Origin: Candidatus Bathyarchaeota archaeon
Lineage (GTDB): Archaea; Thermoproteota; Bathyarchaeia; Bathyarchaeales; Bathycorpusculaceae
Assembly: GCA_012515445.1 (NCBI GenBank)
Contig: JAAYYI010000040.1
Span: 1 to 64,000 of the forward strand
DNA: 64,000 nucleotides
Direction: 5' to 3'
The notes under the pieces are model-generated. The model saw only the letters and a program-made list of their open reading frames with translations. It did no database searches and had not been told where the DNA came from. Each line of letters opens with the position of its first letter. The first letter of the stretch is position 1. The translations under genes were made by a program, and so were the position numbers. Shown here one piece after another: positions 37,655 through 43,832 of the stretch.

Positions 37655-38152
37655 ATGGAGGAATTCGTCAGATTGAAGCTAAAAGACGGTGTAACAGCAT
37701 GGTTAAACGGGGCATTAACAGACCCCATTGTACAAATACTGGCTAAAAACAGCCAATTAACTAAAACGCAATTAGAAACGCTCCTTATTGACATTTTGTC
37801 GGAAAATATAGCGGGGAAAGAGCTAAAGTACGATGAAAAGGCCGCCTTAAGGCTAACAAGGGCTAAAATAAGCCGCGGATCGTTTAATAGGACTTTAAAA
37901 CAGTCCCGTGAAAACGTCATAAAATCTATCTACACAGTGCTATTACTAGGTTATTTGGGGGTTTTTGAGAGCACAACTCTTGACCCGTACTTAGAAATAG
38001 CTAACAAATTGCACGAATATGTCGAGGCACACCAGGACATACCCAGCAAGGAAGAGGAACTAAAAGATCACGTAAAACTCATAGAAATCATCAGAAATGA
38101 GCTCGAAACGAGCCTAAAACGGCTTTCTAGCCCATCACAAGAGCCTTTGTGA
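37655..38152 (+). CDS. Unrecognised helical protein flanked by TCAC/GTGA motifs
   Basis: 165 residues, almost wholly helical and highly charged. The middle holds KYDEKAALRLTRAKISRGSF, which has a ribbon or HTH-like look, and KQSRENVIKSIYTVLLLGYL. The end is a possible coiled coil (KEEELKDHVKLIEIIRNELE). There is no signal peptide or membrane segment. The stop codon lies inside the palindrome TTTGTGACGTCACAAA (38146-38161). The motif fields on both sides suggest a DNA-binding or segregation-type protein acting on its own region, which is inference. Confidence 0.6.
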   Translation: MEEFVRLKLKDGVTAWLNGALTDPIVQILAKNSQLTKTQLETLLIDILSENIAGKELKYDEKAALRLTRAKISRGSFNRTLKQSRENVIKSIYTVLLLGYLGVFESTTLDPYLEIANKLHEYVEAHQDIPSKEEELKDHVKLIEIIRNELETSLKRLSSPSQEPL

Positions 38153-38489: not shown

Positions 38490-39398
38490 GTTGACCTCAC
38501 ACTGGTAATCTTAGCCGTACTATTAACAGTAACAGCGGTAGCATCATACGAATACTACCGCCAAATACGCAAAGTACAGCACCAATACGAGGCAACCGTA
38601 CAGGAATACGAAAAAACCCACCAGCAATACGAACAAAGCTACCTGCAATACCAACTGAGTTTACAGGAATATGCTAAAGCAAAAGACTTCTTAGGCGATA
38701 TAGTGCTAAGTTTCGGCCGCGAACTTAAGCGTGAATCAGAAAAGTTTGACACTATGCTGTCAAAGGTCGAGGGCAGCTACAGCACCGCGGACGCCAGCTA
38801 TCGAAAAGTAGAGAGACTAGAAAACAAGATCGAGCCGATAGAGACACAGCTCATCGCCATCACACAAACCCATCGGGAACTCACACAGAGCATCACAGCG
38901 AACTTGGCAGAAAACATACAAAGTAACACTGCCGTAAAGGCTGAGTTAACCAGTGAAATGTTAACGCTACAGACTAAGTTGCAGGAACTCGTATTGGCAC
39001 AGGAAGCAGCCAAAGCAAAGATGACGGGCTTAGATGAACAAGTCCAGAAGCTAGCCGCAGCCCCACCGCAGATACAGGAAATTAGAACCGAAGTTGTGTT
39101 GCCGGCTGTTCCCATCAAACGTGACAAGGCCTTGGCGGCGTTGACTGAGACAGAAATCGTGGTGCTGGAAATGCTTTCAAAGGAAGGAGCTAAGACGGCG
39201 CCTGAGATTAAGGAGAGGGTGGGGCTTAGCCGAGAGCATACGGCCCGGTTGATGAAGAAGATTTATGAGGAAGGTTATGTGGAGAGGGAGGCAGGTAAGA
39301 TTCCGTTCCGTTACACGATAAAGAAGGAGATGGAGGCGCTGCTGCAAAAGACCGAATCTACGCCCCCGTCGCCTCCGCCGACAGCGCCGTCTGTGTAA
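38484..39398 (+). CDS. Membrane-anchored coiled-coil protein with C-terminal winged helix
   Basis: The ORF track starts at a GTG (38703), but the frame stays open to 38469. The extra codons encode one clear membrane helix (TVDLTLVILAVLLTVTAVAS) followed by Tyr/Gln-rich repeats (QYEATVQEYEKTHQQYEQSY). From the ATC at 38484 the protein has 304 residues: membrane helix at 3-23, long coiled coil to about 215, then a MarR-like winged helix (LTETEIVVLEMLSKEGAKTA, LSREHTARLMKKIYEEGYVE) and a proline-rich tail. GGTGA lies 4 bases before the ATC, so an AUC start is possible; a frameshift near the start is the alternative. Confidence 0.7.
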   Translation: MTVDLTLVILAVLLTVTAVASYEYYRQIRKVQHQYEATVQEYEKTHQQYEQSYLQYQLSLQEYAKAKDFLGDIVLSFGRELKRESEKFDTMLSKVEGSYSTADASYRKVERLENKIEPIETQLIAITQTHRELTQSITANLAENIQSNTAVKAELTSEMLTLQTKLQELVLAQEAAKAKMTGLDEQVQKLAAAPPQIQEIRTEVVLPAVPIKRDKALAALTETEIVVLEMLSKEGAKTAPEIKERVGLSREHTARLMKKIYEEGYVEREAGKIPFRYTIKKEMEALLQKTESTPPSPPPTAPSV

Positions 39399-39573: not shown

Positions 39574-39640
39574 TATGAGGGGGAGGTCACTTTGAGCAGC
39601 GTAGGACCGTCTTTAGCTCTTTATATAAGGGGAGGGGGTT
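39574..39640 (+). repeat. Dispersed G-rich/TATA repeat, copy C
   Basis: TATGAGGGGGAGGTCAC, TTGAGCAGCGTAGGACC, 9 bases, then CTCTTTATATAAGGGGAGGG. It has the same order of blocks as the minus strand at 45262-45333. It sits between convergent genes close to the predicted origin. Confidence 0.75.
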
Positions 39641-39680
39641 CTGTGAGAGCAAAAGAAGCATGTCTACAATATCACTCGCT

Positions 39681-39727
39681 TGTGAAAAACTGTGAAACAC
39701 TGTGAACAAGTTGTGAAGTTGTGTGAA
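39681..39727 (+). repeat. Five helically phased TGTGAA direct repeats
   Basis: TGTGAA starts at 39681, 39691, 39701, 39712 and 39722. The spacing of 10-11 bases puts all five on the same face of the helix, as in iterons. The array lies just past the 3' end of the winged-helix gene (stop at 39741), about 500 bases from the predicted origin. Confidence 0.75.
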
Positions 39728-39740
39728 GCTGTTTATGACC

Positions 39741-40199
39741 CTATTTTATGATGCGTTGCTTGATTGCTGCTGGAATGTTTGGAGCAGTCTTATACTTTAG
39801 GTTGTTAGAAGTGCCTGTGCGCATAAGCATACCCTTTGACGCCATACGAGACAGATAAGTGGAGATTGTGCTTAAGCTAACGGGTTCTTTTAGTTCCTGT
39901 TCATACACAGACTGAATATCTTTAGAAGTAAACCAGATCAGTGGAAAATTCTTATGGATAACTGATTGAACTTTCTCGAAACGTGACATTGATCGGCTAG
40001 CTGGTAGTGCTGGGCTCGTGCTAAGCGATGGAGCTTCATCTTGTGATCCGCCTAGCAATTCAACAAGATCAAGCAGGCGCAGAGCTTTGTCGCGGGTCAC
40101 TTGACCCTCAAAGGCAATCGTGTATCGATTACCATCGTTGTCGAACAGCTCAACGCGCATTTTACGAGCCGGCACTAATTTGACACCTAGGTTGTTCAC
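39741..40199 (-). CDS. Winged-helix DNA-binding protein next to the predicted origin
   Basis: 152 residues. The N-terminal third is a beta/alpha region (MRVELFDNDGNRYTIAFEG). A Ser/Pro-rich linker follows, and the C-terminal half is a winged helix: FEKVQSVIHKNFPLIWFTSK, LKEPVSLSTISTYLSRMASK and KYKTAPN. The start is GTG at 40199; an ATG at 40160 is an alternative. Its promoter region carries an inverted repeat TTCACAG/CTGTGA, and related TGTGAA sites lie at both ends of the gene, which suggests self-regulation. It is not a known initiator family I can name. Confidence 0.7.
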   Translation of the reverse strand: MNNLGVKLVPARKMRVELFDNDGNRYTIAFEGQVTRDKALRLLDLVELLGGSQDEAPSLSTSPALPASRSMSRFEKVQSVIHKNFPLIWFTSKDIQSVYEQELKEPVSLSTISTYLSRMASKGMLMRTGTSNNLKYKTAPNIPAAIKQRIIK

Positions 40200-40210
40200 A
40201 ACTCTACTGC

Positions 40211-40236
40211 TTCACAGCATATAACTGTGATGGTGA
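40211..40236. promoter_or_regulatory. Operator-like palindrome over a promoter
   Basis: TTCACAGCATATAACTGTGA followed by TGGTGAA: the half sites CACAG and CTGTG flank a minus-strand TATA (TTATATGC). It lies just upstream of the GTG at 40199, so a protein bound there would block transcription of the winged-helix gene. It shares TGTGA/TTCACA with the phased array. Confidence 0.6.
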
Positions 40237-40367
40237 ATCAGGGCATTGTAAAAAGCTCAATTTGAGCATATTTTTGGTATAGAGTAGTTTTTTGGTTTGA
40301 TTATGGGATTACCAGCTTCACATGTTCTGTAACGACAAAATAGCTTATCTTTCACGGTTAGATCGGG

Positions 40368-40391
40368 TTTTCCAGTAGAAGTCAAGGGGTG
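40368..40391 (+). other. ORB-like origin recognition box 1
   Basis: TTCCAGTAGAAGTCAAGGGG followed by TG. It matches the archaeal ORB/mini-ORB layout (TTCCAGTGGAAAC...GGGGT). It lies on the orc1-distal side of the AT-rich stretch. Confidence 0.75.
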
Positions 40392-40477
40392 CCACCTTCA
40401 CTGTATACAAGCAGAATTTGGGTAAATTACAGAAAACGAGGCTTGTTAAGTAGCTGATTTTTTGCTATTTCACACAT

Positions 40478-40495
40478 ATTCACAGTTTTGTGAAT
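40478..40495. repeat. Inverted repeat ATTCACA-GTTT-TGTGAAT
   Basis: A perfect 7-bp dyad with a 4-base spacer, followed by another TGTGAA. It is the same word as the phased array at 39681-39727, in palindromic form, inside the predicted origin region. Confidence 0.65.
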
Positions 40496-40708
40496 GTGAA
40501 GCGAAGCCAAACTTAACAATGAAAAAGTCTTGAAAACTCTGTAGGAAGATATTGACCGAGTTAGTTGCCTACTTGGTGGATTTCGTTGGGTTTTTCCATG
40601 GTTTTAGGGGTTTAGCCACACCCCTATGTTTCCAGTCGAGTATTTTACGGTAAAAAAGAATTTTGGGAAGCCCTGAAAAGATATTCAGAGGCTCTGTCTA
40701 ATTTCTTG

Positions 40709-40800
40709 GATAACTACACTTAATATACTAAATGTCAATTAACTATTTAGAGTATATATTTTCATATATTAATAATAAGAATTATCTTTATAGCAACTAT
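40709..40800. other. AT-rich stretch, candidate duplex unwinding element
   Basis: About 90 bases, overwhelmingly A and T (TTAATATACTAAATGTCAAT, AGTATATATTTTCATATATT and so on). It lies between ORB1 and ORB2. In archaeal origins the unwinding element lies between or beside ORBs. Confidence 0.65.
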
Positions 40801-40802
40801 TT

Positions 40803-40826
40803 TTTCCAGTAGAAATCAACGGGTGT
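40803..40826 (+). other. ORB-like origin recognition box 2
   Basis: TTCCAGTAGAAATCAACGGG followed by TG. It differs from box 1 at two positions over 22 bases, in the same orientation, immediately right of the AT-rich stretch. The identity between the two boxes is unlikely by chance. Confidence 0.8.
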
Positions 40827-40916
40827 GTGTTTTCCTCCATTACATTGATTACTATCGCTTGTTTTCATCTTGTTTTAGGATAATTGTGCTTCCAAACCAG
40901 ATTTCTGTACTATACT

Positions 40917-40923
40917 CTTTATA
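40917..40923 (+). promoter_or_regulatory. TATA box of orc1/cdc6
   Basis: CTTTATA lies about 55-60 bases before the ATG at 40978. Transcription would begin near 40945, inside or at the edge of ORB3. GGTGGGTAACAT precedes the ATG as Shine-Dalgarno. Confidence 0.6.
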
Positions 40924-40947
40924 GGTTCCAATAGAAATAACGGTTGT
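40924..40947 (+). other. ORB-like origin recognition box 3 (degenerate), in the orc1 promoter
   Basis: TTCCAATAGAAATAACGGTT follows directly on the TATA box. It keeps the TTCCA-TAGAAAT core but has lost the G-run. Binding of Orc1 here would repress its own gene, an inference from position. Confidence 0.6.
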
Positions 40948-40977
40948 ACCTCTGAAGAATAGAATGGTGGGTAACAT

Positions 40978-42201
40978 ATGGGAAACTCTATACTAGATGA
41001 CGTATTCGACAGCTTCGTTAACGGCGCAAAACTATTCAAAGACCGCGAAGTCCTAAGACACGACTACCTACCAGAAAAGCTCCCACACAGAGAAGATCAA
41101 ATCCGACTATTAGGCTCAACAGTAGCACCTGTATTGAAAAACGCAAGATGCTCAAACATCTTCATCTATGGCAAAACGGGAACGGGAAAAACAGCTGTCG
41201 CAAAATACGTCCTAAGTCACCTTGAATCAAAAGCCAAAGAGTACGGTGCCCAAGTAAGATTCTGCTACGTTAATTGCAGAATGACTGGCTCGGAATATCG
41301 AGTTTTCGCAGCCCTAAGCCAAAGCGTAGGACTATCAATTCCATTTACTGGTTTATCAGTCGGTGAGGTTTTCGACAGATTCCGCACGGGCTTAGACCAG
41401 TCTCGCATAATATTCATAATTGTTCTGGATGAAGTTGACGCACTAATCAAGGACCGGGGCGACGCATTCATGTACGAACTTACCAGAATCAACGAAACAC
41501 TCCGCCAGAGCAAAGTCTCAATCATCGGCATCTCAAACGATCTGCGCCTAAAAGAATTTCTTGACCCAAGAGTCTTCAGCTCCTTAAGCGAAGAAGAACT
41601 CGTATTCCGCCCATACGACGCAGGAGAACTCCGAAATATCCTTCTTGAACGCTCAAAACTTGCGTTCCAAGATGGCGTGCTATCCGAATCGGCGCTAAGC
41701 ATCTCTTCTGCTTTGGCTGCAGCTGAGCATGGCGACGCCAGACGTGCACTTGATCTTTTACGTGTAGCAGGCGAAGTGGCTGAACGTGCAGGCGCAAAAG
41801 CAGTAACAGAGGAACATGTCCGCCAAGCCGAGAAGCATATTGAGCACAACCGCGTTATCGAAGCCCTCAAAAACCTCACATTACACTCGAAACTGGTGCT
41901 GCTAAGCGTTTATCACCTAAACAAGTCAAGTGCATCAACCGGCGAAATCTATGAAGTCTACAACGAACTCTGCGGCGAAATGGGCGCTGGACTACTAACT
42001 CAGAGACGCTTGAGCACTTTAGTTAACGAGCTTGACACCATGGGGTTAGTGAATGCCCGCGTTGTCAGTATGGGACGCTATGGCCGAACAAAAAAGATAC
42101 GGCTAGAAATCAGCCGCGGCTTAATCAAAGACGTGTTTGGCGACGATAACCGTTTTAGCGAATTACTAAAGTATGAACCTAAATGCCTGCACAAAGAGTA
42201 A
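40978..42201 (+). CDS. orc1/cdc6: Orc1/Cdc6 replication initiator
   Basis: 407 residues. The AAA+ ATPase domain has Walker A GKTGTGKTAVAKYV, Walker B IIFIIVLDEVDAL, sensor 1 GISNDLRLKEFLDPR and sensor 2 EHGDARRALDLLRVAGE. The C-terminal winged helix (STGEIYEVYNELCGEM, LLTQRRLSTLVNELDTMG) binds origin boxes. It marks origins and helps load MCM. ORB-like boxes just upstream fit its family's usual arrangement next to oriC. It is convergent with the PolD small subunit gene, stops 3 bases apart. Confidence 0.96.
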   Translation: MGNSILDDVFDSFVNGAKLFKDREVLRHDYLPEKLPHREDQIRLLGSTVAPVLKNARCSNIFIYGKTGTGKTAVAKYVLSHLESKAKEYGAQVRFCYVNCRMTGSEYRVFAALSQSVGLSIPFTGLSVGEVFDRFRTGLDQSRIIFIIVLDEVDALIKDRGDAFMYELTRINETLRQSKVSIIGISNDLRLKEFLDPRVFSSLSEEELVFRPYDAGELRNILLERSKLAFQDGVLSESALSISSALAAAEHGDARRALDLLRVAGEVAERAGAKAVTEEHVRQAEKHIEHNRVIEALKNLTLHSKLVLLSVYHLNKSSASTGEIYEVYNELCGEMGAGLLTQRRLSTLVNELDTMGLVNARVVSMGRYGRTKKIRLEISRGLIKDVFGDDNRFSELLKYEPKCLHKE

Positions 42202-42203
42202 CG

Positions 42204-43832
42204 TTACTCAATGGGGTTCATGAAGTCCAGTACTCTGAGCTCCATTGTCTGTAGGTTAATCACTGGCACCTTTCCAGGAGTTGGCATCAAACCCAGTTTC
42301 TCCATATACTCGGTCTGAAGCTGCCAGCCGCCTGAATTAACCACAAGGGTATTGCGGTACTTGCAGTAACCCAATACGTGGATGTGGCCTCCGTGGAAGA
42401 TGTCTGGAACTTTGTCCACCACCATATAGTCTCTGTTTTCCGGCGAAAGCATGGTTTTTCCGCCATACATCGGCGCTAAATGGCGGACCTGCATAAGAAG
42501 CTTCATAGACTTCTCAGGATGATCATTATCCATTCCTGGGACGACGCCGATTATGTCGTTTAAGCTTACGCCGTGATACATTAGGACTTCGACGCCATGC
42601 AAGCTGAGGTAGCAGGGGCTGCCGACTAAGTGAATGTTCGGTCTGTCCTTGATTGCACTGAGGTATCCTTCTGGGATGGCTGGCTGTGGCTGGGATTTGC
42701 GAGCAGCATCGTGGTTGCCCGGTGAGAGTACGATTTCGATGTAGCTTGGGACCCGTTTGAGGTATTCAGCTGCGAAATTGTATTGCTTGTGTACGTCGCG
42801 TATTGTGAGTTCCATTTGCTGGCCGGGGTAGATGCCGACTCCGTCGACTATGTCTCCTGCGATCAGCAGGTACTTTATTCGACCGGCGATTTCCCGCATC
42901 CAGGGTTCGCCGTATTTGCCTCTTAGCCAGAGGATGAAGCGTTTGAATGCTTCTTTAGTAAATTTTGTGCTGCCAACATGCACGTCTGAGGTGAGTACAG
43001 CCCAGATTGGCTCAGAAGCACGCAGTATTGGTTTTCCGCCGACTTCAGGAAGGATAATGTCTTCAGCCATCAGCAGGTTGGTACGGGTTTTGATGACCGC
43101 TGCGCAGAACACTGTATCTGGCAGTAGCATAAGCACTTTTTTCTTTACTTCCTCAGGCGCTTTGCCCGGAACAATGATTGTGGCGCTGCCATGCGGGTCC
43201 TCGACTGAGAGTATAGTATTGTTTTTGGAGTCACGCCTCTCGGTTAGCATACAAATAATTTTGAGTTTAGCTTTAGGCTGGGACTTGAGCGCTTCAGAAA
43301 TCGGCGTAGCTGAACGCACGTCCATGCGGCTTCTCAGAATTTTCTCAACGCGCTTGAAACGGTCTTGGAAGAGCCCAACATATTCTTCGAGTGTGCCGTT
43401 GGAGGTTAGTTTGCCTGTGGGGTCCTCGATTATTTTAAGGTCTGAGGCGATGTCTTTGGCGTATGGGTAGAAGTAGCCGCTCGCATCCGGCGCTGCGTTT
43501 ATGGCTGGCTCTGTGTAGGTTTCAGCTTGCGGCTCAGGTGATGCATAAGCTGCTGGTTGAGGTACTTTTTCCTGTTCAGCTTGCTCTTCCATTGCCTGCT
43601 GCATCTCTGCCACAGCCAACTGATGGATAACAGACACTAGCCGATCCCGATCGATAAACATCGGTTTGTCCTGCAACGCGGCTAGCTGCATGAGCGCCAT
43701 GTTCATGACCGCTTCGGGATCCATATTTTCCGAGTTCTCGGTGAGGAACTCGAAGGCTTCGCTGTTCAGCGAGTAACCCGCTATTATTGCGGCTTCGATT
43801 GCCTTCTGGAGTTTCTCTTGTGCACTCATCAA
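42204..43832 (-). CDS. polB: DNA polymerase D small subunit DP1 (exonuclease)
   Basis: 542 residues. An N-terminal helical domain (1-85) and a Gln/Pro-rich linker (85-140) precede an OB fold and a calcineurin-like phosphoesterase domain with all motifs: TSDVHVGS, IAGDIVDGVG, LSPGNHDAAR, MYHGVSLND and FHGGHIHVLG. These give the Mre11-like 3'-5' proofreading activity. It partners DP2 (polC, 30813-34244). The gene faces orc1. Confidence 0.96.
   Translation of the reverse strand: MMSAQEKLQKAIEAAIIAGYSLNSEAFEFLTENSENMDPEAVMNMALMQLAALQDKPMFIDRDRLVSVIHQLAVAEMQQAMEEQAEQEKVPQPAAYASPEPQAETYTEPAINAAPDASGYFYPYAKDIASDLKIIEDPTGKLTSNGTLEEYVGLFQDRFKRVEKILRSRMDVRSATPISEALKSQPKAKLKIICMLTERRDSKNNTILSVEDPHGSATIIVPGKAPEEVKKKVLMLLPDTVFCAAVIKTRTNLLMAEDIILPEVGGKPILRASEPIWAVLTSDVHVGSTKFTKEAFKRFILWLRGKYGEPWMREIAGRIKYLLIAGDIVDGVGIYPGQQMELTIRDVHKQYNFAAEYLKRVPSYIEIVLSPGNHDAARKSQPQPAIPEGYLSAIKDRPNIHLVGSPCYLSLHGVEVLMYHGVSLNDIIGVVPGMDNDHPEKSMKLLMQVRHLAPMYGGKTMLSPENRDYMVVDKVPDIFHGGHIHVLGYCKYRNTLVVNSGGWQLQTEYMEKLGLMPTPGKVPVINLQTMELRVLDFMNPIE

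Follow-up and report, generated by a model that had tools for sequence, protein, structure and literature searches.

A well-supported Orc1/Cdc6-type chromosomal origin in a Bathyarchaeia archaeon and a candidate second origin-binding protein

Where does a Bathyarchaeia archaeon begin to replicate its chromosome, and which proteins recognize that place? The question is raised by an intergenic region in the window, the whole 64,000-nucleotide stretch of DNA analysed here, which the initial annotation had read as a chromosomal replication origin beside an orc1/cdc6 gene. Positions 40175–40977 are well supported as the chromosomal origin of this archaeon, of the Orc1/Cdc6 type, with origin activity itself predicted from sequence. 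The origin belongs to a known kind, the archaeal Orc1/ORB chromosomal origins, and gives Bathyarchaeia a placed origin; none is described for this group in the open-licence literature searched. The initial annotation holds in part: its origin call stands and its contrast in box orientation falls, and it missed an inverted ORB, an array of TTCACA sites and a divergent winged-helix gene. The wider proposal, considered probable, is that this chromosomal origin is served by two protein systems, Orc1-1 and a winged-helix protein acting on TTCACA.

The initiator gene (40978–42201, plus strand) follows the boxes at once, as first annotated, and encodes a 407-residue Orc1-1 orthologue with the Pfam domains Cdc6_C, Cdc6_lid and AAA. 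Its best match among solved structures is SsoOrc1-1 (2qby_A, E 1.8e-109), followed by 2v1u (E 2.1e-106); its nearest counterparts are Sulfolobus Orc1-1 and the Aeropyrum protein, and the residues of the winged helix and wing are largely retained. A second Orc1/Cdc6 paralogue, 34% identical, lies on another contig, C5 (L002, G000:C5:2928-4031), and no ORB core was found upstream of it. Convergent with orc1 is the gene for the PolD small subunit, DP1 (42204–43832, minus strand), retained in 69 of 80 loci.

Two near-identical boxes, 92% identical and 434 bp apart, lie upstream of orc1. ORB1 (40367–40396, plus strand) contains the first box, TTTTCCAGTAGAAGTCAAGGGGTG, at 40368–40391, where it had first been placed, and ORB2 (40801–40830, plus strand) contains the second, TTTTCCAGTAGAAATCAACGGGTG, at 40802–40825, one base to the left of the original call; their matrix scores are 35 and 39. 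That the two share a strand was read correctly, but the contrast drawn with the inverted pairs of other archaea does not hold. A third full ORB, ATACTCGACTGGAAACATAGGGGTGTGGCT, occupies 40614–40643 on the minus strand (matrix score 23, genome-wide E 0.001), and with this inverted copy the AT-rich element again has oppositely oriented ORBs on its two sides. This element (40720–40803), a candidate duplex unwinding element, is 86% A+T versus 52% for the window, and the 80-mers starting at 40711–40726 have the highest A+T content of the whole 64 kb. It had been described as having the two direct boxes on either side; the stretch exists, and it adjoins ORB2 rather than lying midway. The inverted ORB and ORB2 flank it with their G-runs directed outward, which is the canonical inverted ORB-DUE-ORB layout. 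At threshold 8, the 30-nt ORB matrix matches shuffled sequence about 0.007 times per 1500 bp; it was built from the relatives' loci, the same loci that were scored, and its core agrees with known ORBs. A degenerate box reported in the orc1 promoter is also present (TTCCAATAGAAATAACGG, 40926–40943), as part of a mini-ORB (40926–40948, plus strand) within a block conserved in the genus alignment (40898–40952). Relatives often carry such a mini-ORB at about −46 to −60, and its position over the orc1 promoter likely reflects autoregulation.

The genomes nearest to the window are Candidatus Bathycorpusculum and other Bathyarchaeota metagenome-assembled genomes, and comparison with relatives bears out the chromosomal origin claim. 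The boxes are kept in nearly every Bathyarchaeia orc1 locus read. In nearly all loci of the class with enough upstream sequence, the ORBs follow the order +/−/+ at about −610, −360 and −172 from orc1, and the inverted ORB keeps its place and orientation in almost all of them; this position reading leaves out the minus-strand members of loci L006–L034, which are unoriented. The ORBs are also confined to the locus in the archaeon's own 2.44 Mb genome, where a sequence-only covariance model finds exactly three matches at E<=1, all at the origin. In nine relatives the best matches to this model likewise cluster upstream of orc1.

The other side of the intergenic region is occupied by a divergent gene (39741–40175, minus strand) for a 144-residue protein with a C-terminal winged helix. 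Its start is the GTG at 40175, where relatives begin MPARK. The structural model, of moderate quality (pLDDT 74, pTM 0.46), comprises an N-terminal beta hairpin and helix followed by the winged helix. Searches of PHROGs, PADLOC, NCBIfam and Pfam returned no convincing match and none above cut-off, Foldseek against the PDB gave generic winged-helix matches only (none below E 0.001), and no viral relatives of the protein were found. Among known winged-helix families, Penicillinase_R, Fur and CopY show weak similarity below the curated cut-off and were rejected. The gene is single-copy in 178 of 251 Bathyarchaeia genomes and in 127 of 200 genomes from across the phylum, with never more than one per genome, and in nearly all Bathyarchaeia loci whose upstream sequence reaches far enough it stands in divergent orientation to orc1. 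The divergent winged-helix/orc1 arrangement extends to AmoA-bearing ammonia oxidisers (family f29) and to families f34, f51, f32, f41 and f43. The Bathyarchaeota chromosome CP070749.1 (L107) has an orc1 locus lacking ORB1, TTCACA sites and the winged-helix gene all at once, in keeping with a link between gene and motif. Bathyarchaeia family f9 (G044, G174, G176, G207 and relatives) shows no Orc1-1 match at E 1e-60 and no winged-helix gene; G044 is 98% complete.

A second motif is arrayed around ORB1. In the promoter of the winged-helix gene, a TTCACA pair (40195–40200 and 40211–40216, plus strand; offsets −172 and −156 from ORB1) and an inverted GGTGAA (40232–40237, offset −135) provide three half-sites that surround the gene's TATA-like box (40217–40224); a bacterial-type promoter scan was set aside as not applicable to archaea. 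The most widely retained site lies at 40317–40322 (plus strand, offset −50). A degenerate TTCACT (40397–40402, plus strand, offset +30) abuts ORB1, and 36 of 58 loci have TTCACA there. Beyond ORB1 stand another TTCACA pair (40469–40474 and 40479–40484, plus strand; offsets +102 and +112) and a reverse TGTGAA pair (40489–40494 and 40495–40500; offsets +122 and +128). Five direct copies spaced 10–11 bp apart follow the 3' end of the winged-helix gene (39681–39727, minus strand), a run found only in close relatives. Altogether, 12 of the 36 copies of TGTGAA/TTCACA in the 64 kb fall within 39640–40977, a 23-fold enrichment.

The spacing is fixed across relatives. In 58 Bathyarchaeia loci the TTCACA offsets from ORB1 are −172/−171, −156, −50, +30, +103 and +113/114, with a reverse site at +123. 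When every hexamer was counted at every offset in these loci, TTCACA topped the ranks beside the ORB core, and its top rank holds in the 26 loci that diverge most from the window. Column conservation is 0.77 for TTCACA, 0.76 for ORB1 and 0.56 for other columns. Genome-wide, six of the eight TTCACA pairs 4–10 bp apart sit at the origin locus; by that measure, therefore, TTCACA is not a scattered nucleoid-protein motif. No paper bringing together TTCACA, archaea and a replication origin was found in the open-licence literature. The phase-locked motif and its conserved candidate binder are likewise absent from the open-licence literature searched, and to that extent form a new part of this origin.

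Which protein reads these sites is suggested by their distribution. The pattern TTCACA-N(34–58)-ORB was searched in 200 genomes of the phylum, including lineages without the winged-helix gene. It occurs in 47 of the 127 genomes with the gene versus none of the 73 without it (Fisher p 1e-11, with genomes not independent), and by family in 13 of 26 versus 0 of 15 (p 0.001); the reversed-pattern control gave one match. By position comparison, the listed matches adjoin orc1 or the winged-helix gene. In families f39 and f35 TTCACA still stands beside ORBs near orc1 although the winged-helix gene has relocated. Against the link, the strict pattern is absent in 80 of the 127 genomes with the gene, and one genome (G063, locus L145) has the gene with no TTCACA upstream. 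The gene–motif co-occurrence and the promoter overlap make the winged-helix protein the most likely binder of the TTCACA sites. With half-sites over the winged-helix promoter and the mini-ORB over the orc1 promoter, the layout would suit autoregulation by both proteins.

An unlikely alternative is that the origin is real and TTCACA is bound by some other factor, such as a nucleoid protein, the second Orc1/Cdc6 paralogue or a replisome protein, with the winged-helix protein merely a neighbouring regulator. Such a paralogue exists on another contig, the assignment of TTCACA to the winged-helix protein draws on sequence comparison, and UBP of Sulfolobus is an unlinked general protein that serves an origin motif (PMC12141716). 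However, three observations argue against another binder. First, the motif–ORB pattern is found only in genomes that have the winged-helix gene, unlinked cases included. Second, TTCACA sites cover that gene's own promoter. Third, few TTCACA pairs at close spacing lie outside the origin locus, unlike the sites of a general nucleoid protein.

That the region is merely a divergent promoter for orc1 and the winged-helix gene, with replication beginning elsewhere, is highly improbable. TTCACA sites and the mini-ORB do overlap both promoters, as this reading would have it, but a promoter needs far less than three full ORBs grouped about the element richest in A+T, and the genome has no ORB matches at E<=1 elsewhere. 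Moreover, the ORBs go with either gene once the two separate. In families f48, f30, f54 and f46 (loci L310, L314, L316, L318 and L320), one to three ORBs per locus are found ahead of the winged-helix gene, while the region upstream of the distant orc1 showed none; in these families origin and orc1 seem to have become separated. Strand composition bears on the same point. Because the window's genome is in 127 contigs, skew was sampled in 20-kb stretches from five single-contig relatives (G192, G048, G165, G194 and G210). In G192 the contrasts between the left and right sides of orc1 in GC skew and in coding strand each rank first of 40 rotations, and in G048 GC and AT skew about orc1 rank first of 20. 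The sampled stretches of G165, G194 and G210 show no GC-skew signal at orc1. GC skew thus agrees with an origin at orc1 in two of five relatives; the split at orc1 in G192 and G048 speaks against the promoter reading, the flat skew of the other three would suit it, and the skew evidence overall is supportive but mixed. Shared ancestry of close relatives or chance, with no function, can practically be dismissed as the source of the regularity: relatives are non-independent samples and short words recur in AT-rich DNA, but the fixed offsets persist across other families and classes while neighbouring columns diverge, a between-family comparison that contradicts this reading, and the reversed pattern was matched only that once.

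The ammonia oxidisers count against the assignment of TTCACA to the winged-helix protein. A single origin has been mapped in Nitrosopumilus maritimus (PMC4010727). The thaumarchaeal orc1 locus resembles the present one in having the same divergent winged-helix/orc1 pair in AmoA-bearing genomes, and differs in its shorter intergenic region and in carrying GTTAAC instead of TTCACA. In these loci (family f29; L283–L290, L300 and L301), GTTAAC stands at nearly fixed positions between the two genes, and ORB-like cores are also present. For the assignment to hold, the motif must have shifted in this lineage. The recognition-helix triplet, LST in TTCACA lineages, reads LSV or LSI in ammonia oxidisers, a correlation only, and it is possible that the motif shift is paired with this change of T to V or I.

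In the proposed mechanism, Orc1-1 would occupy ORB1, the inverted ORB and ORB2, and MCM loading and duplex opening would take place at the AT-rich element between the inverted ORB and ORB2; this part is drawn from the Sulfolobus oriC1 model. The mini-ORB in the orc1 promoter is probably a further Orc1-1 site. The winged-helix protein would most likely bind TTCACA both over the promoter of its gene and at set distances around ORB1. By folding or bracing the ORB1 side of the origin, it may shape a defined nucleoprotein complex through which initiation is controlled or tuned. We infer the identity of the TTCACA binder, and the effect of its binding, from the comparative evidence.

Three Sulfolobus systems invite comparison. 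WhiP, like the Bathyarchaeia protein, is of the winged-helix kind. It is associated with an archaeal origin, Sulfolobus oriC3 (PMC12141716, PMC4010727). Compared by description, WhiP takes the place of Orc1 and defines an origin of its own, whereas the Bathyarchaeia protein would accompany Orc1-1 and ORBs. PMC12141716 describes Sulfolobus oriC1 as an Orc1-1 origin of ORB2-DUE-ORB3 layout, with inverted ORBs flanking an AT-rich element and a further ORB outside. The Bathyarchaeia locus shares the Orc1-1 orthologue, the inverted ORBs around an AT-rich element and the extra outer ORB, and has in addition TTCACA sites at fixed spacing around ORB1 and a dedicated winged-helix gene facing away from orc1. 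Nearest in role is UBP of Sulfolobales and Desulfurococcales, which, as proposed for the winged-helix protein, is a non-Orc protein on a conserved origin motif, ucm (PMC12141716). UBP is a 111-residue saddle-shaped beta protein with more than 300 genomic sites and a recent phyletic range, and ucm lies inside the DUE (PMC12141716). In contrast, the Bathyarchaeia protein occurs in several classes, hardly any of its candidate close paired sites lie away from the origin, and the TTCACA sites there surround ORB1. Its model is a winged helix and not a beta saddle; the UBP family was therefore rejected as its identity, the folds being unrelated by UBP's description.

Most of what is known about non-Orc proteins at archaeal origins comes from Sulfolobus, and the UBP study raises the question of whether analogous proteins exist in more divergent lineages (PMC12141716). 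It is on balance favoured, with somewhat less assurance than the wider proposal, that the winged-helix protein serves across much of Thermoproteota as a second, dedicated origin-binding factor, recognizing TTCACA (GTTAAC in ammonia oxidisers) and building the initiation complex with Orc1-1, and thus a counterpart of UBP where none is known. The locus points to a particular candidate and the sites it would bind, present both in Bathyarchaeia and in ammonia-oxidising archaea that can be cultivated, so that the question can be put to the test with purified protein and short DNA.

Two further genes lie near the origin. A 231-residue coiled-coil protein with a C-terminal MarR-like domain (38703–39398, plus strand) is encoded beside it in 42 searched loci. 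A 165-residue protein of no known family (37655–38152, plus strand) is encoded near it in 39 searched loci, with 85–89% identity in close relatives.
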